From NCBI RefSeq assembly GCF_900112175.1, contig NZ_FOYT01000002.1, positions 310,001 through 374,000 on the forward strand: a DNA stretch of 64,000 nt. Reading direction: 5' to 3'. Shown piece after piece: positions 3,296 through 56,129 of this stretch; the first letter of the stretch is position 1, and each line of letters starts with the position of its first letter. Made by a program: the position numbers and the translations under genes. A model generated the notes under the pieces. That model was not told the DNA's origin and ran no database searches. It saw only the letters and a program-made list of their open reading frames with translations. Source of the stretch: Halogeometricum rufum. GTDB lineage: Archaea; Halobacteriota; Halobacteria; Halobacteriales; Haloferacaceae.

Positions 3296-4620
3296 CGGTC
3301 GTCACCTCCGTGGTCGGAGACGCCGCCGTCGGTGGCGGCGCTCGGTCGGTCTGCGTGCGATTCGTCCCGCGCGTCCAGCGGTCGGAGCGGCAGCACCTCG
3401 GCGCCGAGCGAGTAGAGCAGCAGTCCGACGGCAATCATCCCCGCCGAGGTCAGCCACTCCACCGCGCTCGGGAAGTACTCGCCGTGCGGCAGGCCCTCCA
3501 TCACGGGCAGTATCTGCGGCGGGACGACGATGTTGAACCGCACCGCGACGATGCCGACGACGACGCTCAGGCCCGCCAGCGTCAGCGGCACCGCGGAGCG
3601 CCGCCAGGAGCGGTTGCTCAGCACGACCAGCGGGAGGACCCAGCCGAGGCCGACCATGAACACCCAGAACGACCACGACATCTCGCCGAACAGGACGACG
3701 AGCCACGTCTCCACCTCGTGGGGGTGCAGGCTGTTGAGCGCGATGAGCGCGTCGATGGTCGTGAACGCCGCGTCCGCGAGGACGAACGCGGCGAGCAACT
3801 GACCGAGGCGGTCCATCAGGTCGCGGTCCAGCGTCTCGCCCGTCAGGAGCTTCGACCGCAGGACGTACAGCGCGGCGACGAGCGCCGTCCCCGACACCAC
3901 CGCCGAGACGACGAAGATGACCGGGAACAGCCCGCTGTTCCAGTACGGCCGGGCCTTCGCGACGGCGAACAGTACGCCGGTACCGCCGTGGACCATGAAT
4001 ATGGCAAGGGGGATGCCGACCAGCCCGGCCCGCTTCAGCCAGCGCTCGTCCGTCTCCGCCGAGGCGGCGGACGTGTCGCGCCGACCGAGGGTGAGCAGGC
4101 CGCAGAGCCTCGCCCGCCAGCCCTCGGCGTGCGCGGCCACGCGGGCGAGGTCGACGCGCATCGAGAAGTACAGCTCCGTCACGAGGACGCCGATGTAGGC
4201 GACGTAGGCGTGGACCTCCCACGACAGCGCCGACGTGAGCTGTCGCCAGATGAACGGGTGGTACATCCGGTCCATCCGGCCGAGGTCGGTCCAGACGAAC
4301 AGTAGCGCCACGACCATGCTGACGATGGCCGCGAACAGGGCGTCGCGGTCTATCTTCTCTAAGCCCTCCACCTCGAAGACGTTCGCCAGCGTGCTGACGA
4401 GGAACGCCCCCGCCGAGAGGCCGACGAAGTAGATGTAGAAGGCGACCCACGCCCCCCACGGCGCGACGCTCGTGAGGTTGGTACTCGCCATCCCGAGGCT
4501 GATGCGACGCCACGTGGCCCACCCGCCCACCGCCAGCAAGACGGCCAGCAGGGCGTACCACGCGACGCGGAACCGTCCGTTCCGGAAGCCGGAGTCGTAG
4601 TCGAGTTCGGTCGTCGCCAT
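3292..4620 (-). CDS. NrfD/PsrC-family membrane subunit of the molybdoenzyme complex
   Basis: Integral membrane quinol-oxidising (or quinone-reducing) subunit, 442 residues with about nine to ten hydrophobic helices, the size expected for NrfD/PsrC/TtrC. It would pass electrons from the quinone pool to the ferredoxin-like subunit and then to the catalytic subunit. The region ASTNLTSVAPWGAWVAFYIY near residues 45-65 is typical of NrfD openings. It starts four bases after the ferredoxin gene stops, and its own stop overlaps the catalytic gene start, so the three are one transcription and translation unit. The tail is polar and acidic. Confidence 0.92.
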   Translation of the reverse strand: MATTELDYDSGFRNGRFRVAWYALLAVLLAVGGWATWRRISLGMASTNLTSVAPWGAWVAFYIYFVGLSAGAFLVSTLANVFEVEGLEKIDRDALFAAIVSMVVALLFVWTDLGRMDRMYHPFIWRQLTSALSWEVHAYVAYIGVLVTELYFSMRVDLARVAAHAEGWRARLCGLLTLGRRDTSAASAETDERWLKRAGLVGIPLAIFMVHGGTGVLFAVAKARPYWNSGLFPVIFVVSAVVSGTALVAALYVLRSKLLTGETLDRDLMDRLGQLLAAFVLADAAFTTIDALIALNSLHPHEVETWLVVLFGEMSWSFWVFMVGLGWVLPLVVLSNRSWRRSAVPLTLAGLSVVVGIVAVRFNIVVPPQILPVMEGLPHGEYFPSAVEWLTSAGMIAVGLLLYSLGAEVLPLRPLDARDESHADRPSAATDGGVSDHGGDDR

Positions 4621-5983: not shown

Positions 5984-7882
5984 ATGGCCGTGAACCCGCT
6001 GCTGGCGGCCTCGATCGCACTCCGTCTCGGCGGCGTCGGCTACTCGCTCGCGCTCCTCTCTCGGAGCCGTGACCGCCGGTTCGCGTTCCTCACGTGCATG
6101 CTCGCGCTGATGGCGGCGCGGCAGGTCTGGACCGCGATGGCGACGACGGCCACCGGACTCGCGGAACTGCCGGGACTCCTGGTCAGCGTCCTCGCCGTCG
6201 CGACGGTCCACTACCTCTCGCGGTACGTCTCCGAGGAGGACCGCATCAAGGCGCGACTCCGAGAGACCAACGAGGAGCTTCGAAGCTTCCGGAAGGCGGT
6301 CGAACACGCCGGCCACGCCATCTTCCTCACCGACACCGACGGCACCATCGAGTACGCCAACCCCGCCGTCGAGACGGTGACCGGCTACGCCCCCGAGGGC
6401 GTCGTCGGCGAGGACCCCAGCCTCTGGAAGTCGGGCGAACACGACGACGACTTCTACGAGGACCTCTGGGCGACGATAACCGACGGGGAGGTCTGGGACG
6501 GCGAGATAATCAACGAGCGACGCGACGGGGAGTTCTGCTGGGTGGACATGACCGTCGCCCCCATCACCGACGACGCGGGCGAGGTGGACCGGTTCGTCGC
6601 CGTCGACACCGACGTGACCGAACGCAAGGAGCGCGAACTCCGCATCCGCGAGCAGAAAGAGCGACTCGAACACCTCAACGACACGAACGAGGTGCTCCGG
6701 GAGGTCAACCGCCGCCTCGTTCAGGCGGACGACCGAGACGACGTCGAGCGCGCGGCCTGCGAGCAGTTCGCCGCGACCGACCCCTACGACGCCGCGTGGG
6801 TCGCGACCCGGAACATGGTCAACGACGCCGTCCGGGAGCGCACGCACGCCGGCATCGACGCCGAGAGCCTCGACGCCGTCGTCGCGGCCCTGAACGACGC
6901 CGACGGGGAGACGCCCGTGGACCGAGCGCTGACCGAGGGCGTGACCGCCGTCGCTCGAACGGGCGACGGCGACGACGGGTTCGCCCCGGCGGGGTCGGCG
7001 GCGACGCTCGCCATCCCGCTCACCTATCGGGACGTCTCCTACGGCGCGCTCGTCGTCCACGCGGCCGACGCCGACGCCCTCGACGCCGTCGACCCGTCCG
7101 TCCTCGACGAACTCGGCGAGACCATCGGCTACGCCGTCGACGCGGCCGAGAGCAAGCAGTCGCTGGTCGCCGACCGGGTGACCGAACTCACGTTCAGACT
7201 CCCGCCCGACGCCGGTCCGCTGTTCGAACTCGCGGCCGGCCTCGACTGCGAACTCGAACTCGACCGGCTCTCGGTCGCCGCCGACGGCGCTCCCGTCGAG
7301 TACGTCACCGTCCGGGGCGCGGACGCAGACGCCGTCTGCGACGCCGCCGCCGCGGACCCGCGGTTCGAGTCCGCGCAGGTCCTGTCGGACGGCGACGAGG
7401 CCGCAGTCGTCCGATTCGCCGTCTCCGACGCGTCGGTCGTGACCACGCTGGCCGACCGCAACTGCGTGGTCGACTCGCTCTCGGCGGACGCCGCCGGCGG
7501 CCGCGTCACCGCCGAGATGCCGCAGAGCGCGTCCGTCGGCAGCGTCGTCGAGGCGGTGCGCGCCCGCCACCCCGACGCCGACCTGATCGCACAGCGCGAA
7601 CGCGAGCGCTCGACCGAGACCCGAGGCGAGTTCCGCGCCGCCCTCGAGGACCGACTCACGGAGCGGCAACTGGAAGCGCTCCAGACGGCCCACTTCGCGG
7701 GCTACTTCGACTGGCCGCGCGAGACCAGCGGCGAGGACGCCGCGGCCCTGATGGACATCTCCCAGTCGACGTTCCTGCAGCACCTCCGGGCCGCGGAGCG
7801 GAAACTCGGCGAACGGCTGTTCGACGAGGAGAGCGACGCGGGGACCCGTGCGACGGCCGGCCGCCTCGCGGCGAAACGCTGA
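5984..7882 (+). CDS. Bat-like membrane-anchored PAS/GAF/HTH_10 transcriptional regulator
   Basis: A 632-residue regulator of the haloarchaeal bacterio-opsin activator (Bat/DmsR) type. Residues 1-80 form about three hydrophobic helices; a short coiled coil leads to a PAS domain (about 101-222, FRKAVEHAGHAIFLTDTDG onward) that ends in DVTERKERE; a GAF-like domain covers about 235-395; a Bat-associated sensor segment runs to about 545; and HTH_10 occupies about 560-612 (ERQLEALQTAHFAGYF ... STFLQHLRAAERKL). The open frame extends much further upstream, but coding character begins at ATG 5984. Its position divergent to an anaerobic respiratory operon suggests it controls that operon, by analogy with DmsR beside the haloarchaeal DMSO reductase genes (inference). 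Confidence 0.88.
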   Translation: MAVNPLLAASIALRLGGVGYSLALLSRSRDRRFAFLTCMLALMAARQVWTAMATTATGLAELPGLLVSVLAVATVHYLSRYVSEEDRIKARLRETNEELRSFRKAVEHAGHAIFLTDTDGTIEYANPAVETVTGYAPEGVVGEDPSLWKSGEHDDDFYEDLWATITDGEVWDGEIINERRDGEFCWVDMTVAPITDDAGEVDRFVAVDTDVTERKERELRIREQKERLEHLNDTNEVLREVNRRLVQADDRDDVERAACEQFAATDPYDAAWVATRNMVNDAVRERTHAGIDAESLDAVVAALNDADGETPVDRALTEGVTAVARTGDGDDGFAPAGSAATLAIPLTYRDVSYGALVVHAADADALDAVDPSVLDELGETIGYAVDAAESKQSLVADRVTELTFRLPPDAGPLFELAAGLDCELELDRLSVAADGAPVEYVTVRGADADAVCDAAAADPRFESAQVLSDGDEAAVVRFAVSDASVVTTLADRNCVVDSLSADAAGGRVTAEMPQSASVGSVVEAVRARHPDADLIAQRERERSTETRGEFRAALEDRLTERQLEALQTAHFAGYFDWPRETSGEDAAALMDISQSTFLQHLRAAERKLGERLFDEESDAGTRATAGRLAAKR

Positions 7883-7985
7883 CAGACGCGTGGACCCGAG
7901 CCGTAGTCGAACGCCGTCGAACGTCGGCGAGCCGTCATCAACGCTTAACTCGGGGCCGCGTGAGACGCTACCAATATCAGATAAG

Positions 7986-10151
7986 ATGAACGAGACAGGC
8001 GAGACGATCCGCGTCCTCCACGTGGACGACGAACCGAACTTCGCGGACCTGGCAGCGACCTTCCTCGAACGCGAGAACGACCGGTTCAGCGTCGAGGCGG
8101 TGACCAGCGCGACCGAGGGGTTGGACCGACTCGCGGCCGAGGCGTTCGACTGCGTCGTCTCCGACTACGAGATGCCGGGTCAGAACGGCATCGAACTCCT
8201 CGAAGCGGTCCGAGAGGAGTACAGCGACCTCCCCTTCATCCTCTACACGGGGAAGGGAAGCGAGGAAGTCGCCAGCGAGGCCATCTCCGCGGGCGTCACC
8301 GACTACCTGCAGAAGGAGGGCGGCACCGGGCAGTACGCCGTCCTCGCGAACCGCATCGAGAACGCCGTCGAGCAGTACCGCTCCCGGTCCGCGCTCGAAG
8401 CCAGCCAGCGCCGTCTCTCGCTGTTCATCGAACAGTCCCCGCTCGGCGTCATCGAGTACGACGAGCACTTCGAAATCGTCCGCCTGAATCCCAAGGCAGA
8501 GGAGATTCTGGGCTACTCCGAGGAGGAGTTGCGGGGTCACTCCTGGGAGGAGATAGTGGCCGAAGAGAGCTACGAGAACGTCGACACGGTGACCGACGAA
8601 CTGGCGGCGGCCAGCGGCGGGTACCACAGCGTCGACGAGAACGTCCGGAAGGACGGCGAACGGATAATCTGCGAGTACCACAACCGCGTCGTCACCGACG
8701 AGGACGGCGCAGTCGTCGCCGTCTTCTCGCTGTTTCAGGACATCACCGAGCGCGAACGGCGCGAGAAACGGCTCCGAGAGACCACCGCCCGCCTCAAGGC
8801 CCTGTTCGAGGAGTCGCCCGACATGATAAACATCCACGACACCGAGGGGAACATCACCGACCCGAATCCCCACCTGTGCGCGGAGACGGGCTACGACGAG
8901 TCGGAACTCTCCGGGATGAAAGTCTGGGACCTCGATCAGACCATCGACCCCGAGGAGGCGCACTCGCTGTGGGAGGAGATGGAACGCGGCGAGCGCCGGA
9001 AGTTGGAAGGTGTCTACCGGCGGAAGGACGGGTCGACGTTCCCCGTCGAGGTACACGTCAGACGGCTCGACCTGTCCGGTTCCGTCCGGTTCGTGGTCAT
9101 CAGCCGAGACATCTCCGAACGGAAGCGGCGCGAGTCGGACCTCGAACGGACGAACGCGTTGCTGTCGACGCTCGTCGAGACCCTCCCCGTCGGCGTCATC
9201 GCGGAGGACGCCTCCCGACGCGTCCTCGCGGCCAACCAGCGCCTGTTCGAGTTGTTCGAGATGGACCGCTCGCCGGACGAAGTTCTCGGCGAAGACTGCG
9301 CGCGGGTCGCGGGAGACGTGAGCGACCTGTTCGCCGACGCGTCCCGGTTCACCGAGCGAATCGACGAGATAATCGCGGCGTGCGAACCGGTCCACGACGA
9401 GGAGTTGACGCTCGCGGACGGGCGGACGTACGCCCGGAGCTACGAGCCCATCGAACTCGCCGACGGGACGGGGCACCTGTGGACGTACCGGGACGTCTCC
9501 GAGCAGAAGGAGCGGGAGGAACAACTACAGCGACAGAACGAGCGGCTGAACGAGTTCGCGAGCGTGGTCTCACACGACCTCCGGAATCCGCTCAACGTGG
9601 TGCAGGGCCGCGTCGAACTGGCACGCGAGGAGTGTGACACGGAGCACCTCGACCCGGCCGCGAACGCGCTGGACCGGAGTCTCACCCTCATCGACGACCT
9701 GCTGACGCTCGCCCGCGAGGGCGACGCCGTCGGCGACCTGTCGTCGGTGGACCTCGCGGACCTCGCCGACCGCTGCTGGCAGAACGTCGACACGGCAGGC
9801 GCGACGCTCTCGGTCGAAGCGGCGCGGACGGTTCGCGCCGACCGGAGCCGCCTCCAGCAGTTGGTGGAGAACCTCGTCCGGAACGCGGTGGAACACGGCG
9901 GCGACGACGTGACCGTCACCGTCGGCGACCTCGACGACGGGTTCTACGTCGAGGACGACGGGGCGGGCATCCCGCCCGAGGACCGCGACTCGGTGTTCGA
10001 CGCCGGCTTCTCCACCTCCAGGGAGGGGACGGGCTTCGGACTGAGCATCGTTCAACAGGTCGCCGAGGCGCACGGGTGGCGCATCGCCGTGACCGAGAGC
10101 GCCGAGGGGGGCGCGCGGTTCGAGATCACCGGCGTCTCCGGGACACGGTGA
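7986..10151 (+). CDS. Hybrid receiver-PAS-PAS-PAS histidine kinase
   Basis: A soluble 721-residue kinase. An N-terminal receiver domain has Asp60 in VVSDYEMPG as the phosphoacceptor and a K in the FILYTGKGS loop. Three PAS domains follow (about 140-260, 265-390, 395-515), then HisKA with His530 in VVSHDLRNPLN, and an ATPase domain with N box NAVEHGG, DDGAGIP and GTGFGLSIV. Receiver-first kinases of this order are common in haloarchaea and have no membrane segment. It begins about 100 bases after the Bat-like gene in the same direction, so the two may share a signal path. The ligand of the PAS domains is unknown. Confidence 0.9.
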   Translation: MNETGETIRVLHVDDEPNFADLAATFLERENDRFSVEAVTSATEGLDRLAAEAFDCVVSDYEMPGQNGIELLEAVREEYSDLPFILYTGKGSEEVASEAISAGVTDYLQKEGGTGQYAVLANRIENAVEQYRSRSALEASQRRLSLFIEQSPLGVIEYDEHFEIVRLNPKAEEILGYSEEELRGHSWEEIVAEESYENVDTVTDELAAASGGYHSVDENVRKDGERIICEYHNRVVTDEDGAVVAVFSLFQDITERERREKRLRETTARLKALFEESPDMINIHDTEGNITDPNPHLCAETGYDESELSGMKVWDLDQTIDPEEAHSLWEEMERGERRKLEGVYRRKDGSTFPVEVHVRRLDLSGSVRFVVISRDISERKRRESDLERTNALLSTLVETLPVGVIAEDASRRVLAANQRLFELFEMDRSPDEVLGEDCARVAGDVSDLFADASRFTERIDEIIAACEPVHDEELTLADGRTYARSYEPIELADGTGHLWTYRDVSEQKEREEQLQRQNERLNEFASVVSHDLRNPLNVVQGRVELAREECDTEHLDPAANALDRSLTLIDDLLTLAREGDAVGDLSSVDLADLADRCWQNVDTAGATLSVEAARTVRADRSRLQQLVENLVRNAVEHGGDDVTVTVGDLDDGFYVEDDGAGIPPEDRDSVFDAGFSTSREGTGFGLSIVQQVAEAHGWRIAVTESAEGGARFEITGVSGTR

Positions 10152-50717: not shown

Positions 50718-51722
50718 GTGTCCCCGAAACCACCGACGGAACGAACGGTACTGCGGACGCTCCGATGGCTCGGACGCGGCCTCGTGTGGCCGGTCTGGAA
50801 TCGCGACGCCGGTCGATTTCGCGCGCCGGTGCGAGCGTTTCTGCCACTCGTCCTGACGTTTCTCGCCCTCGCGGTCGTGCAGACTGCAATCAGAGCACGG
50901 TTCGAGCATCCGGCCCGCGAACCGCTCGAACTGCTGGGACTGTCGGCTATCCTCGTCGCCGGCGTCCTCGTCAGTGCGCGACTGGTCGACCGGCGACCGG
51001 TCTCGGAGTACGGCCTCTCGCTCGGACGTCGGTGGTGGAAGTCGTTCGCCGTCGCCGGGGGAGTCGGAACGGCCGTCAACGCCGGAGCGCTCGCCGTCTC
51101 GGTCGGCGCCGGCTGGGCGTCCGTCACCGGGTACGTGCAGTCGCCGGGCGTCCTCTCGTTTCTCCCGGCGACGGCGGTGACGTTCGCCCTCGTCGCCGTC
51201 GCCGCGAGTTGGGAGGAGTTCGTCTTCCGGGCCGCGATGCTGAAGAACGTCGCGGAGGGGGCGGAGAGCACCCTCGGCCGGGTGCCGGCCGTGGTCGTCG
51301 GCGTCCTCCTCAGTTCGCTCGTGTTCGCCGCCCTCCACGGCGGAAAAGTCGACGACCCGGCGCAGTACGGCTACTACCTGGAAGCCGGACTGCTGTTCGG
51401 TACCGTGTACGCCCTCACGGGCGACCTCTCGTTACCGGTCGGATTCCACGTGTTCTACAACTACACGCAGGGGCTGTTCGGCCTCGGCGTCTCGCAGGCG
51501 ACGCCCGAACTCGTCGCCCTCGAACTCGTCGGGCCGGCCGCGTGGGTCGGTGAGGAGGGACTCGTCCACGTCGTCTTCGCCGCCGTCGGCGGCGCACTCC
51601 TCGTGGCGTACGTCCGTTGGCGAGATGGCCCCCTCCGGGTACGTGACCGTCTGACCCGATGGACTCCGACTACCGCACGCGGAGGGAACCCCGACGACCG
51701 CCGAGAACCGTCGGCGGAGTGA
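50718..51722 (+). CDS. CPBP family intramembrane metalloprotease
   Basis: A 334-residue membrane protein with about eight helices. SWEEFVFRA (Glu-Glu and Arg), AALHGG and GFHVFYNYTQG are the three CPBP motifs of the glutamic-type intramembrane protease. The target is unknown. Start GTG 50718; C-terminus is basic and polar. It precedes the repeat protein by 165 bases with two hairpins between. Confidence 0.88.
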   Translation: MSPKPPTERTVLRTLRWLGRGLVWPVWNRDAGRFRAPVRAFLPLVLTFLALAVVQTAIRARFEHPAREPLELLGLSAILVAGVLVSARLVDRRPVSEYGLSLGRRWWKSFAVAGGVGTAVNAGALAVSVGAGWASVTGYVQSPGVLSFLPATAVTFALVAVAASWEEFVFRAAMLKNVAEGAESTLGRVPAVVVGVLLSSLVFAALHGGKVDDPAQYGYYLEAGLLFGTVYALTGDLSLPVGFHVFYNYTQGLFGLGVSQATPELVALELVGPAAWVGEEGLVHVVFAAVGGALLVAYVRWRDGPLRVRDRLTRWTPTTARGGNPDDRREPSAE

Positions 51723-51887: not shown

Positions 51888-52799
51888 GTGAACCCGAGTC
51901 GCGTCGACTCCATCGTCGACCTGACCTACGGGCTGTTGATCGCGATTTCGGTCGGACTCATCGTCGTCGCCGGAAACGTCGTCGGATTGGCGTTCGGGTT
52001 CGGGGTGCTGGTCTCCTACGTCCTCCACGTCGTCTGGAAGATGGCTCGTTTCGACCCGAACTGGATGACGACGGCGGTCAAGGAGACGGTGGAGGAGACT
52101 GTCAACGAGACGGTGGAGGAGACTGTCAACGAGACGGTGGAGGAGACTGTCAACGAGACGGTGGAGAAGACAGTCGGCGAAACCGTCGAGAAGACAGTCG
52201 GCGAAACCGTCGAGAAGACCGTCGACGAAAAAGTGGGCGAGACGGTGGAGAAGACGGTCGGTGAAACGGTCGAAGAGACGGTCGAAGAGACGGTCGGCGA
52301 GACAGTCGAAGAGAAAGTGGGCGAAACCGTGGAGAAGACTGTCGGCGAGACAGTCGAAGAGAAAGTGGGCGAAACCGTGGAGAAGACTGTCGAGGAGACT
52401 GTCAACGAGACGGTCGGCGAGACGGTGGAGAAGACGGTCGACGAGACGGTCGAAGAGAAGGTCGGTGAGACGGTCGAGAAGACTGTCGGCGAGACGGTGG
52501 AGAAGACGGTCGAGAAGACTGTCGGCGAGACGGTGGAGAAGACGGTCGAAGAGAAGGTCGGTGAGACGGTCGAGAAGACTGTCGACGAAACAGTCGAAAA
52601 GACCGTCGACGAGACGGTGGAGAAGACGGTCGAAGCGAAGGTCGGCGAGAAGGTAGAGGAGACTCTGGAAGAACAGGCGGCGGCCGAGAACGCTGACGGA
52701 GAGGCGGACGAGGCCGCCGACTCCGACGAGGACAACGAGGCCGCCGACTCCGACGAGGACAACGAGGCCGCCGACTCCGACGAGGCCGAGACGTCGTGA
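51888..52799 (+). CDS. Membrane protein with a long valine-tetrad repeat and acidic tail (function unknown)
   Basis: A 303-residue protein starting at GTG 51888. Two hydrophobic helices (about 10-28 and 31-50) anchor it. From 64 to 260 every fourth residue is valine (49 times; Leu at 260), with no phase break; the other positions are mostly Glu, Lys, Thr, Asn, Asp and Gly, so the repeat is of the type ETVEKTVG. The tail (about 265-303) is acidic with copies of EAADSDEDN. Four-residue spacing differs from heptad coiled coils: as an alpha helix the valines would make a slowly turning right-handed stripe. The codons vary between units while the residues do not. The stop overlaps the PiT gene by four bases, so it probably works with the transporter. 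No homologue recognised. Confidence 0.8.
   Translation: MNPSRVDSIVDLTYGLLIAISVGLIVVAGNVVGLAFGFGVLVSYVLHVVWKMARFDPNWMTTAVKETVEETVNETVEETVNETVEETVNETVEKTVGETVEKTVGETVEKTVDEKVGETVEKTVGETVEETVEETVGETVEEKVGETVEKTVGETVEEKVGETVEKTVEETVNETVGETVEKTVDETVEEKVGETVEKTVGETVEKTVEKTVGETVEKTVEEKVGETVEKTVDETVEKTVDETVEKTVEAKVGEKVEETLEEQAAAENADGEADEAADSDEDNEAADSDEDNEAADSDEAETS
52060..52670 (+). repeat. Imperfect 12/24-bp tandem repeats encoding the valine tetrads
   Basis: The DNA alternates GAG-ACG-GTG-type units with synonymous changes at Glu, Thr and Val codons (for example GTC and GTG). Long units such as GTCGGCGAGACGGTGGAGAA recur several times, so the block is prone to slippage and gene conversion. Confidence 0.8.
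52710..52784 (+). repeat. 27-bp direct repeats encoding the acidic tail
   Basis: Two identical 27-bp units (52710-52736, 52737-52763) and a 21-base partial third (52764-52784) encode EAADSDEDN. Identity at all codon positions indicates recent duplication. Confidence 0.85.
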
Positions 52800-53974
52800 T
52801 AAGCGTACTCCTCGTCGCTGGCGTGCTCGTGGCGATGTTCGTCGCCTACAACATCGGTGGGTCGACCACGGGGCCGGCGTTCGGTCCGGCGGTCGGAGCC
52901 GACGCCATCTCCAAGCCCGTCGCCGCGGCACTGATGGGCGTGTTCTTCTTCCTCGGCGCCTGGACGCTCGGTCGGAACGTCGTGACGAAACTCGGAAGCG
53001 AACTGGTCGTCGACACCGGTATCTTCACGCTCGAATCCTCTATCGCGGTGCTCTTCTTCATCGGCGTCGCACTCTTGGTCGGGAACGTCTACGGCGTGCC
53101 GGCCTCGACGTCGATGACCGCCGTGGGTGCCATCGCCGGTCTCGGACTGGCCGGTGGCGTGTTGGACCTCGCCGTGATGGGGGAGATAGTCGTCTGGTGG
53201 GTCGTCTCGCCCATCGTCGGGTTCTGGGTCTCGCTGATCATCGGCCGATACTTCTACGCACGGCTGAACGGGTTGGTCGCGATGGACCGCAGTACGGGAC
53301 CGCTGTTCGACGTCGACCGGTCCGGCCTCGTCCCCGTCCCGCGCGTTCACCGGACGACCAACCGCCGGGAACTCGCCGGGACGTTCACCGTCGTCGCCAT
53401 CGGCTGTCTGATGGCGTTCTCCTCGGGCACCTCGAACATCGCCAACGCCGTCGCACCGCTGGTCGGCAGCGGCGAGTTGGCGATGAACCCTGCCATCGTC
53501 TTCGGCGGCGTCGCCGTCACCGTCGGGGCGTTCACCATCGCCCGACGGACGCTGGAGACGATGGGCAGCGACATCACGGAGCTACCGCTGACCGCGGCCA
53601 TCGTCGTCGCGTCGGTCTCCTCGACGCTGGTCGTCTTCCTCTCGGCGCTCGGCATCCCCGCGAGCTTCGTCATCATCGCGACGATGTCCATCGTCGGACT
53701 GGGCTGGGGGCGAGCGACTCGACCGATGACCGCTCCCGAGGTGGTCACCGGCGACGGCGGGTCGCCGGTCACGGTCGACGCGCTAGCGGCCGACGAGGAG
53801 GGCGAGACGCTTCCGCCCATCGGCGCGGAGGACGCCGAGGACATCCCCAGCCCGGGGGCGCTGTTCAACCCGGTGACGACCGCTCGGGTCGTCATGATGC
53901 AGAACGTCGTGCCGGCCATCGCGACGGCCGGTGCCTACCTCACGTTCCGGTTCGTCCCGATATTCGGGTTCTGA
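52796..53974 (+). CDS. PiT-type inorganic phosphate transporter
   Basis: A 392-residue permease with about ten to eleven helices in two repeats. The second repeat keeps SSGTSNIANAVAPLVG (about 208-222). In the first repeat the usual GANDxANA is AYNIGGSTTGPAFGPAVGA (about 17-35), without the Asn-Asp pair, as in some haloarchaeal PiT proteins. It starts at GTG 52796, four bases inside the tetrad-repeat gene. A partner of the PhoU/DUF47 type, common beside PiT genes, is not present; the repeat protein occupies that place. Confidence 0.88.
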   Translation: MISVLLVAGVLVAMFVAYNIGGSTTGPAFGPAVGADAISKPVAAALMGVFFFLGAWTLGRNVVTKLGSELVVDTGIFTLESSIAVLFFIGVALLVGNVYGVPASTSMTAVGAIAGLGLAGGVLDLAVMGEIVVWWVVSPIVGFWVSLIIGRYFYARLNGLVAMDRSTGPLFDVDRSGLVPVPRVHRTTNRRELAGTFTVVAIGCLMAFSSGTSNIANAVAPLVGSGELAMNPAIVFGGVAVTVGAFTIARRTLETMGSDITELPLTAAIVVASVSSTLVVFLSALGIPASFVIIATMSIVGLGWGRATRPMTAPEVVTGDGGSPVTVDALAADEEGETLPPIGAEDAEDIPSPGALFNPVTTARVVMMQNVVPAIATAGAYLTFRFVPIFGF

Positions 53975-55241: not shown

Positions 55242-56129
55242 ATGTCTGCATTGAATCCGAGAGTAGACGCGAAGCAGAGAGCGAACGATACGTCGGGCGT
55301 CGCCGGACGCGCGTGGATGTATCTGGCCGTCGCGATAGCGGGGACCTGGGCGTTCTGGCTCCCGGCCATCGCGCTCGGCGTGCGGTTCGACAGCGCCCTG
55401 GGACTCGCGTTGCTCCTCGTCGGACTTACCGTGCCCGGCGTCGCTGGTATCGCCTTCGTCTATCTGAACTACGACGAGCGCGGCCGAGCCGACTTCTGGA
55501 ACCGCGTCACGCAACCGCGACGCTTCGGACTCCGCTGGCTCGCCGTGATTCTGCTGGTGCCCCTCGCCGTGAGCGTTCTCGCCGGCGTCGTGGACCTGCT
55601 CCTCGGCGGAACCGGGGCGACGTGGGGCGAGGGCGTGACCGAGTTCGGAGTCACCCCGCTCGCGATACTGCCAGCGCTGTTCTTCGCGACGCTGCCCCCG
55701 ATTCTCGAAGAGTTGGGGTGGCGCGGCTACGCGTTGGACCGACTGCAACTCAACTGGTCGGCGTTCGGCGCGAGCGCTATCCTGGGCGTCGTCTGGGCGC
55801 TCTGGCACCTCCCGCTGTTCTTCGTCGAGGGGTCGTACCAGCACGACGCGGTGGGGTTCGCGACCACCGGGTTCTGGCTGTTCATGGCCGGCATCGTCGC
55901 GCTCTCGTTCGCGTTCACGTGGGTCTACAACAACACCGAACGCAGCATCCTCGGAATCGTCGTCTTACACGGCTGGGTGAACTTCACGGCCGAGGTCATC
56001 GTCGTCCCCGATCCGGCGTACTACGGCCTCTGGTTCGTGCTCGCGGCGGTAATCGTCGCAGTGTGGGGCCGACGCACCATGACCGGTGCCGACGAGGTTC
56101 CGCACCCGCCCCTCCCGTCCGTCCAGTAG
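55242..56129 (+). CDS. CPBP family intramembrane metalloprotease
   Basis: A 295-residue membrane protein with about eight helices. ILEELGWRGYALDRL is the first motif, ALWHLPLFF the second, and GIVVLHGWVNF the third. It belongs to a different branch from the CPBP gene at 50718 (the EELGWRGY type). Target unknown. Confidence 0.9.
   Translation: MSALNPRVDAKQRANDTSGVAGRAWMYLAVAIAGTWAFWLPAIALGVRFDSALGLALLLVGLTVPGVAGIAFVYLNYDERGRADFWNRVTQPRRFGLRWLAVILLVPLAVSVLAGVVDLLLGGTGATWGEGVTEFGVTPLAILPALFFATLPPILEELGWRGYALDRLQLNWSAFGASAILGVVWALWHLPLFFVEGSYQHDAVGFATTGFWLFMAGIVALSFAFTWVYNNTERSILGIVVLHGWVNFTAEVIVVPDPAYYGLWFVLAAVIVAVWGRRTMTGADEVPHPPLPSVQ

Follow-up and report, generated by a model that had tools for sequence, protein, structure and literature searches.

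The window, by which we mean the whole 64,000-nucleotide stretch of DNA that was analyzed, contains a gene whose product joins a putative membrane head to a long tail with valine at every fourth residue and to an acidic C-terminus. Directly after this tetrad gene comes the gene for a PiT-family permease, whose start codon is overlapped by the tetrad-gene stop over 4 bp (Table 1). The best NCBIfam model for the permease is a sulfate permease, with a score far below the cut-off. Homologues of the tetrad protein start at the same residue as the 303-residue protein itself, and the head is conserved, with R5, D7, D11, G15, G33, A35, G37, G39, H47, W50, K51, M52, R54, D56, P57, W59, and M60 invariant among 53 relatives. 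The units of the tetrad segment are mostly V-[EGDN]-[EK]-[TK], and its net charge is approximately -43. The sequence-only reading had counted 49 valines and one leucine in steps of four from residue 64 to 260, with no insertion or deletion, and we recovered all 50 of these 50 positions; the single leucine is the last (260) and is encoded by CTG. Two CAAX-type membrane proteases flank the locus.

Table 1. Features of the tetrad locus and of related loci. Rows with an L number refer to that locus; all others refer to the window.
Feature	Position	Strand	Details
Tetrad gene (membrane head, V-tetrad tail, acidic C-terminus)	51888..52799	+	303 aa, GTG start
Head, residues 1-62	51888..52073	+	predicted helical hairpin, helices 3-28 and 30-54
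Tetrad segment, residues 64-260	52077..52667	+	49 V and 1 L, step 4
Acidic C-terminal stretch, residues 264-303	52677..52796	+	about three identical 27-bp units at 52708-52785
PiT-family permease gene	52796..53974	+	PF01384, 137.6 bits, E 6.3e-40
CAAX-type membrane protease	50718-51722		Rce1-like, PF02517
CAAX-type membrane protease	55242-56129		Rce1-like, PF02517
Second-family member, L146	6677-7525		
Second-family member, L147	6089-6490		
Second-family member, L148	3739-4578		
Second-family member, L149	~3950-4500		
Second-family member, L150	4645-5280		
Second-family member, L151	3981-4961	-	
Second-family member, L152	3707-4417	-	
Family gene between two PiT clades			L063, L068, L071, L072, L074, L075, L081, L083, L088, L094, L101, L106, L108
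Membrane protein of ~280 residues, PiT-less loci L084, L100, L104	near 9020-9960	-	
Membrane protein of ~280 residues, PiT-less locus L087	near 8940-9770	-	
Membrane protein of ~280 residues, PiT-less loci L064, L066	near 7260-8130	-	
PiT piece, L109	5511-5915	-	139 residues

Searches of Pfam, NCBIfam, and the PDB returned no family that describes the tetrad protein. The head had only subthreshold matches in Pfam (VirB3 and the like), PF01865 was absent from the Pfam scan of the protein, and a PDB sequence search with the head profile and the whole protein gave no match. NCBIfam matches to serine-rich and GvpQ models were far below their cut-offs and were set aside. A match to CdrL_M / CdrL-like (PF24252), at 27 bits just at the cut-off and spanning 29 residues, was rejected as compositional; the genome's own CdrL, encoded elsewhere, scores 95 bits and has an architecture unlike that of the tetrad protein. 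Residues 64-93 matched phrog_36210 (54 positions, unknown function; E 2.9e-12). This match is probably to the repeat itself and may point to a viral protein that carries repeats of this sort; a search of phage genomes gave no match, and its low-complexity filter may mask one. In the literature, we found no account of a four-residue valine spacing or of tetrad coiled coils.

The protein is nevertheless not an isolated oddity. Its head was present in 35 of 60 related genomes and at 203 loci of a species-wide collection, where the best 80 of the 203 were all haloarchaeal. In a phylum-wide sample of 295 genomes, each of the 41 carriers came from the window's order. The combination of head and tail occurs at approximately 200 loci and, as far as seen, is limited to one haloarchaeal order. 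The earlier statement that no such archaeal family had been described therefore stands with respect to Pfam, NCBIfam, and the PDB, but it needs amending: the protein belongs to a widespread haloarchaeal family that is undescribed where we searched. Copies on plasmids carry no annotation beyond that of a hypothetical protein. A 999-residue open frame in one genome (G017) is explained by an upstream frame that stays open, with no recognizable fusion.

The four-residue phase is kept across this family, which is the outcome that the sequence-only reading had named as a check of its proposal. Among the tails of 80 named relatives, the gap between successive V/I/L residues was 4 in 2148 cases, 3 in 92, and some other value in 31, and in 34 of these tails every gap was 4. 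Tail length ranges from approximately 55 to approximately 285 residues. Short members have a few tetrads, followed by a 3-4-3-4 segment that ends in RIDRRPREDEIEELLE and resembles an ordinary coiled coil; such ends suggest that the tail may be helical along its whole length, the pure tetrad being an extreme case. In addition, two weak matches led to a second, distant family, with head identity to the first of approximately 24-36% (TTFYIDLIYGVLF...AAFAGGIVLGYFLHVWEKM) and tails that are again valine rich. Of its seven tails, some have nearly all V/I/L gaps at 4 and others mix 3 and 4. At one first-family locus (L029, G021:C1), the repeat runs on in a shifted frame (KLSKIPSKGPSTTPSK...) in the C-terminal part of the tail, which therefore contains a frameshift or sequencing error within the array. 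At other loci (L010/L078 and L043), runs of N inside the array, presumably assembly gaps, make tail lengths unreliable. A scan of the 60 genomes for GT at every 12 bp retrieved mostly unrelated valine-rich DNA or low-complexity DNA in the wrong frame, and its output was left unused.

The regularity of the tail raises the question of how it arose. When we shuffled the tail's own residues 10,000 times, the longest step-4 chain of V/I/L was 10 (mean, 3.5). At the DNA level, the tetrads form a 12/24/48-bp tandem array of 589 bp (Tandem Repeats Finder scores, 387-476), and an argument can be made that the tail is a low-complexity product of slippage on a 12-bp unit, mechanically in phase and structurally meaningless, so that the head alone matters. 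Gains and losses of whole 12-bp units would preserve the phase automatically, and congeners do differ in length (303, 275, 266, and 227 residues). Yet the valine codon in the window's array is nearly invariant at its first two bases, whereas wobble bases vary freely, with an entropy of up to 1.75 bits. Between units, pN/pS was 0.044 at valine versus 0.57, 0.22, and 0.26 at the three other residues, ratios from pairwise counts that are descriptive and carry no test because unit pairs are not independent. The array is old, with 28 distinct 12-mers among its 50 units, and these data show that valine was retained while silent changes built up. Furthermore, the residues between the valines depend on lineage (ETVE, VTEE, VSDTVSKE, VGDSVEKT, and VEKSVEESVGEQ), and lineages with units as unlike as the last three of these and VTEEVTEE all keep valine at intervals of four, a spacing that the second family has as well. 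The tetrad array is more than recent slippage, and we consider it improbable that the tail is meaningless. Rather, selection probably keeps the valines at their four-residue spacing, and the length would change freely as 12-bp units come and go.

The conserved neighborhood of the family is a second line of evidence. A PiT gene lies within 1 kb of the family gene in 61 of the 80 relatives; the nearest one is downstream and codirectional at 39 of these loci, divergent at 20, and convergent at 2, and many relatives have an overlap of 1-4 bp with a downstream PiT gene. Once further PiT genes are counted, a convergent downstream PiT gene is found at 15 loci. At 13 of them there is a divergent PiT gene too, so that PiT genes from two different clades enclose the family gene; all 13 are from Natrialbaceae. 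In a quick PiT tree with many weak forks, neighbors of the family gene came from three deep clades, the deepest split being strongly supported. A PiT gene also adjoins the second-family gene at three of seven loci. In the same PiT subfamily, many genes lack the family gene as a neighbor, and no head relatives were found in the regions examined around PiT genes lacking a family-1 gene. Among the 60 related genomes, PiT occurs in 58 and PhoU_div (PF01865), PiT's usual partner, in 5, being missing from the other 55.

At 17 of the 80 loci, in Halorubrum, Halobellus, Halohasta, some Natrinema, and others, there is no PiT gene within the examined flanks (1.5-6 kb on each side). Such exceptions would be expected if the protein were a membrane-anchored structural rod or spacer, for instance a cytoskeletal tether or something like an ATPase stalk, with no specific tie to PiT and a neighborhood that reflects a shared stress or membrane regulon. 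The variation in tail length is also what one would expect of a spacer, and the heptad-like ends of short members (VDAVQERIETVDQRIDRRPR) resemble ordinary coiled coil. Against this, adjacency recurs with different PiT clades, in different orientations, and in the second family, a pattern not easily accounted for unless PiT is involved; we therefore judge a plain rod unlikely. Two further observations concern these regions. The PiT-less loci L064, L066, L084, L087, L100, and L104 share a conserved membrane protein of approximately 280 residues a short distance downstream of the family gene, and L109 carries a short PiT piece just upstream of it, perhaps a truncated or decayed permease.

What structure the tail adopts can be approached by prediction. 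AlphaFold2 placed helices at residues 3-28, 30-54, 61-158, and 164-270 of the tetrad protein, with no strand and at low confidence (tail pLDDT, 54-70; pTM, 0.28), and a 127-residue relative was likewise modeled as helices without strand, again at low confidence. Single-chain prediction tends to render charged repeats helical, and valine and threonine are poor helix formers. According to these models, the tail is probably helical. Thr-Val pairs had been taken in the sequence-only reading as leaving room for beta structure, and few strong helix formers besides E and K occur in the segment. A fibrous or beta-solenoid tetrad segment is nonetheless highly improbable given that neither low-confidence model contains a strand and that the tails of relatives are interspersed with 3-4 spacing of the heptad type, which is characteristic of helices.

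For a straight alpha helix, the geometry first proposed is right: the valine stripe would turn by approximately 40 degrees per repeat and return every 36 residues. The spacing is neither heptad nor hendecad, as had been claimed, but exactly 4.00 over 50 positions. The hydrophobic moment of the tail is 0.251 at 90 degrees per residue and drops to 0.018 at 98.2 degrees and 0.015 at 100 degrees, so an undistorted helix would lack a constant hydrophobic face. This speaks against a lipid-binding amphipathic helix of the perilipin or synuclein kind (11-residue periodicity), lying flat on the membrane, since there is no constant alpha or 3-11 face to lie on. The tail does begin close to the membrane and has the T/V-rich composition of low hydrophobicity that would suit such a helix. 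With its strongly negative charge presumably opposing binding to acidic archaeal lipids, we regard this reading as very unlikely.

The accessible range for coiled coils is held to run from approximately 3.33 residues per turn to an upper bound estimated at about 3.9; this range excludes 4.0, and its known extreme is YadA at 3.8 (Hartmann et al. 2016, PMC4786415). The tetrad segment, at 4.00, falls outside this canonical range, and a continuous coiled coil at 4.0 would therefore be unprecedented. Taken together with the moment result, this limit implies that the tail is beyond the known range, mixes helix types, changes partners from one end to the other, or is loosely ordered. A bolder version, to which we give tentative and minority credence, is that the tail folds into a regular and stable assembly whose hydrophobic period is truly 4.0 residues; molar salt would stabilize it, and it would form the cytoplasmic portion of a PiT partner of a new class. 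Such an assembly could, for example, consist of helices with a strong right-handed twist, the candidate favored in the sequence-only reading, of mixed alpha/pi helices, or of bundles whose stripe visits successive neighbors. In any case, tetrad tails provide a natural, selected set of sequences for testing how far helical-repeat periodicity can extend, the accepted limit lying below 4.0.

Because the spacing is conserved and a PiT-type permease is the usual neighbor, the tetrad protein is probably a transporter partner. We put a probability of roughly 55% on its being an uncharacterized haloarchaeal accessory of PiT permeases, regulatory or scaffolding, with a long cytoplasmic and probably helical tail. 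The link to PiT is drawn from gene neighborhood, which in itself proves no interaction. As we envisage it, the helical hairpin of the head would anchor the protein in the membrane beside the permease encoded next door. Both ends would most likely be inside, judging from charges only (K51 and R54 after helix 2), and the long, very acidic tail would reach into the cytoplasm in the form of a helical rod or bundle. There it may regulate, cluster, or tether the PiT (phosphate/sulfate) transporter, and the protein may stand in for the PhoU-like PitR, with which PiT is paired in other prokaryotes and which most of these genomes lack. The tetrad protein is thus a likely missing PiT partner in haloarchaea, where the PhoU-like partner is mostly absent. 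Both this question and that of periodicity can be tested in genetically tractable species.

Several known systems resemble parts of the tetrad protein. Right-handed coiled coils (residues per turn: hendecad, 3.67; pentadecad, 3.75; YadA, 3.8) share with the tail a hydrophobic spacing wider than that of an undistorted helix and a right-handed drift, whereas the tail holds 4.00 over approximately 200 residues, outside the range deemed accessible (PMC4786415). Alpha/beta coiled coils, which form beta-layers at hexads and nonads, are likewise built from repeats that break the alpha-helical periodicity limit (PMC4786415). Unlike them, the tetrad tail has no predicted strands, and no hexad or nonad insertions mark the gap distribution given above. 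Nor does it have the constant 11/3 face of the perilipin and synuclein repeat, as the moment at 98.2 degrees indicates. In the b-type stalk subunits of rotary ATPases, a membrane anchor leads into a long, charged helix of right-handed character; the tetrad protein differs in its two-helix anchor, its strict tetrads, and the lack of adjoining ATPase genes.

The closest parallels are found among PiT accessories. PitR / PhoU_div (DUF47, PF01865) is, like the tetrad protein, encoded beside a PiT permease and mainly helical, and its established or proposed site of action is cytoplasmic, as we propose here for the tetrad protein. In bacteria, PitR, whose clade is sister to that of PhoU, nearly always has its gene next to pitA and works together with PitA (PMC13170248). 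The two proteins have no sequence match, PitR being a PhoU bundle and the tetrad protein a membrane hairpin with a repetitive tail. SCO1846, a small, unrelated membrane protein, adjoins pitA in 45 genomes, often where PitR is lacking, and by its description it is one third the size of PhoU, with no tail mentioned (PMC13170248). The tetrad protein likewise combines a predicted membrane hairpin with PiT adjacency. By analogy with PitR and SCO1846, a haloarchaeal PiT accessory of yet another origin would fit the pattern.
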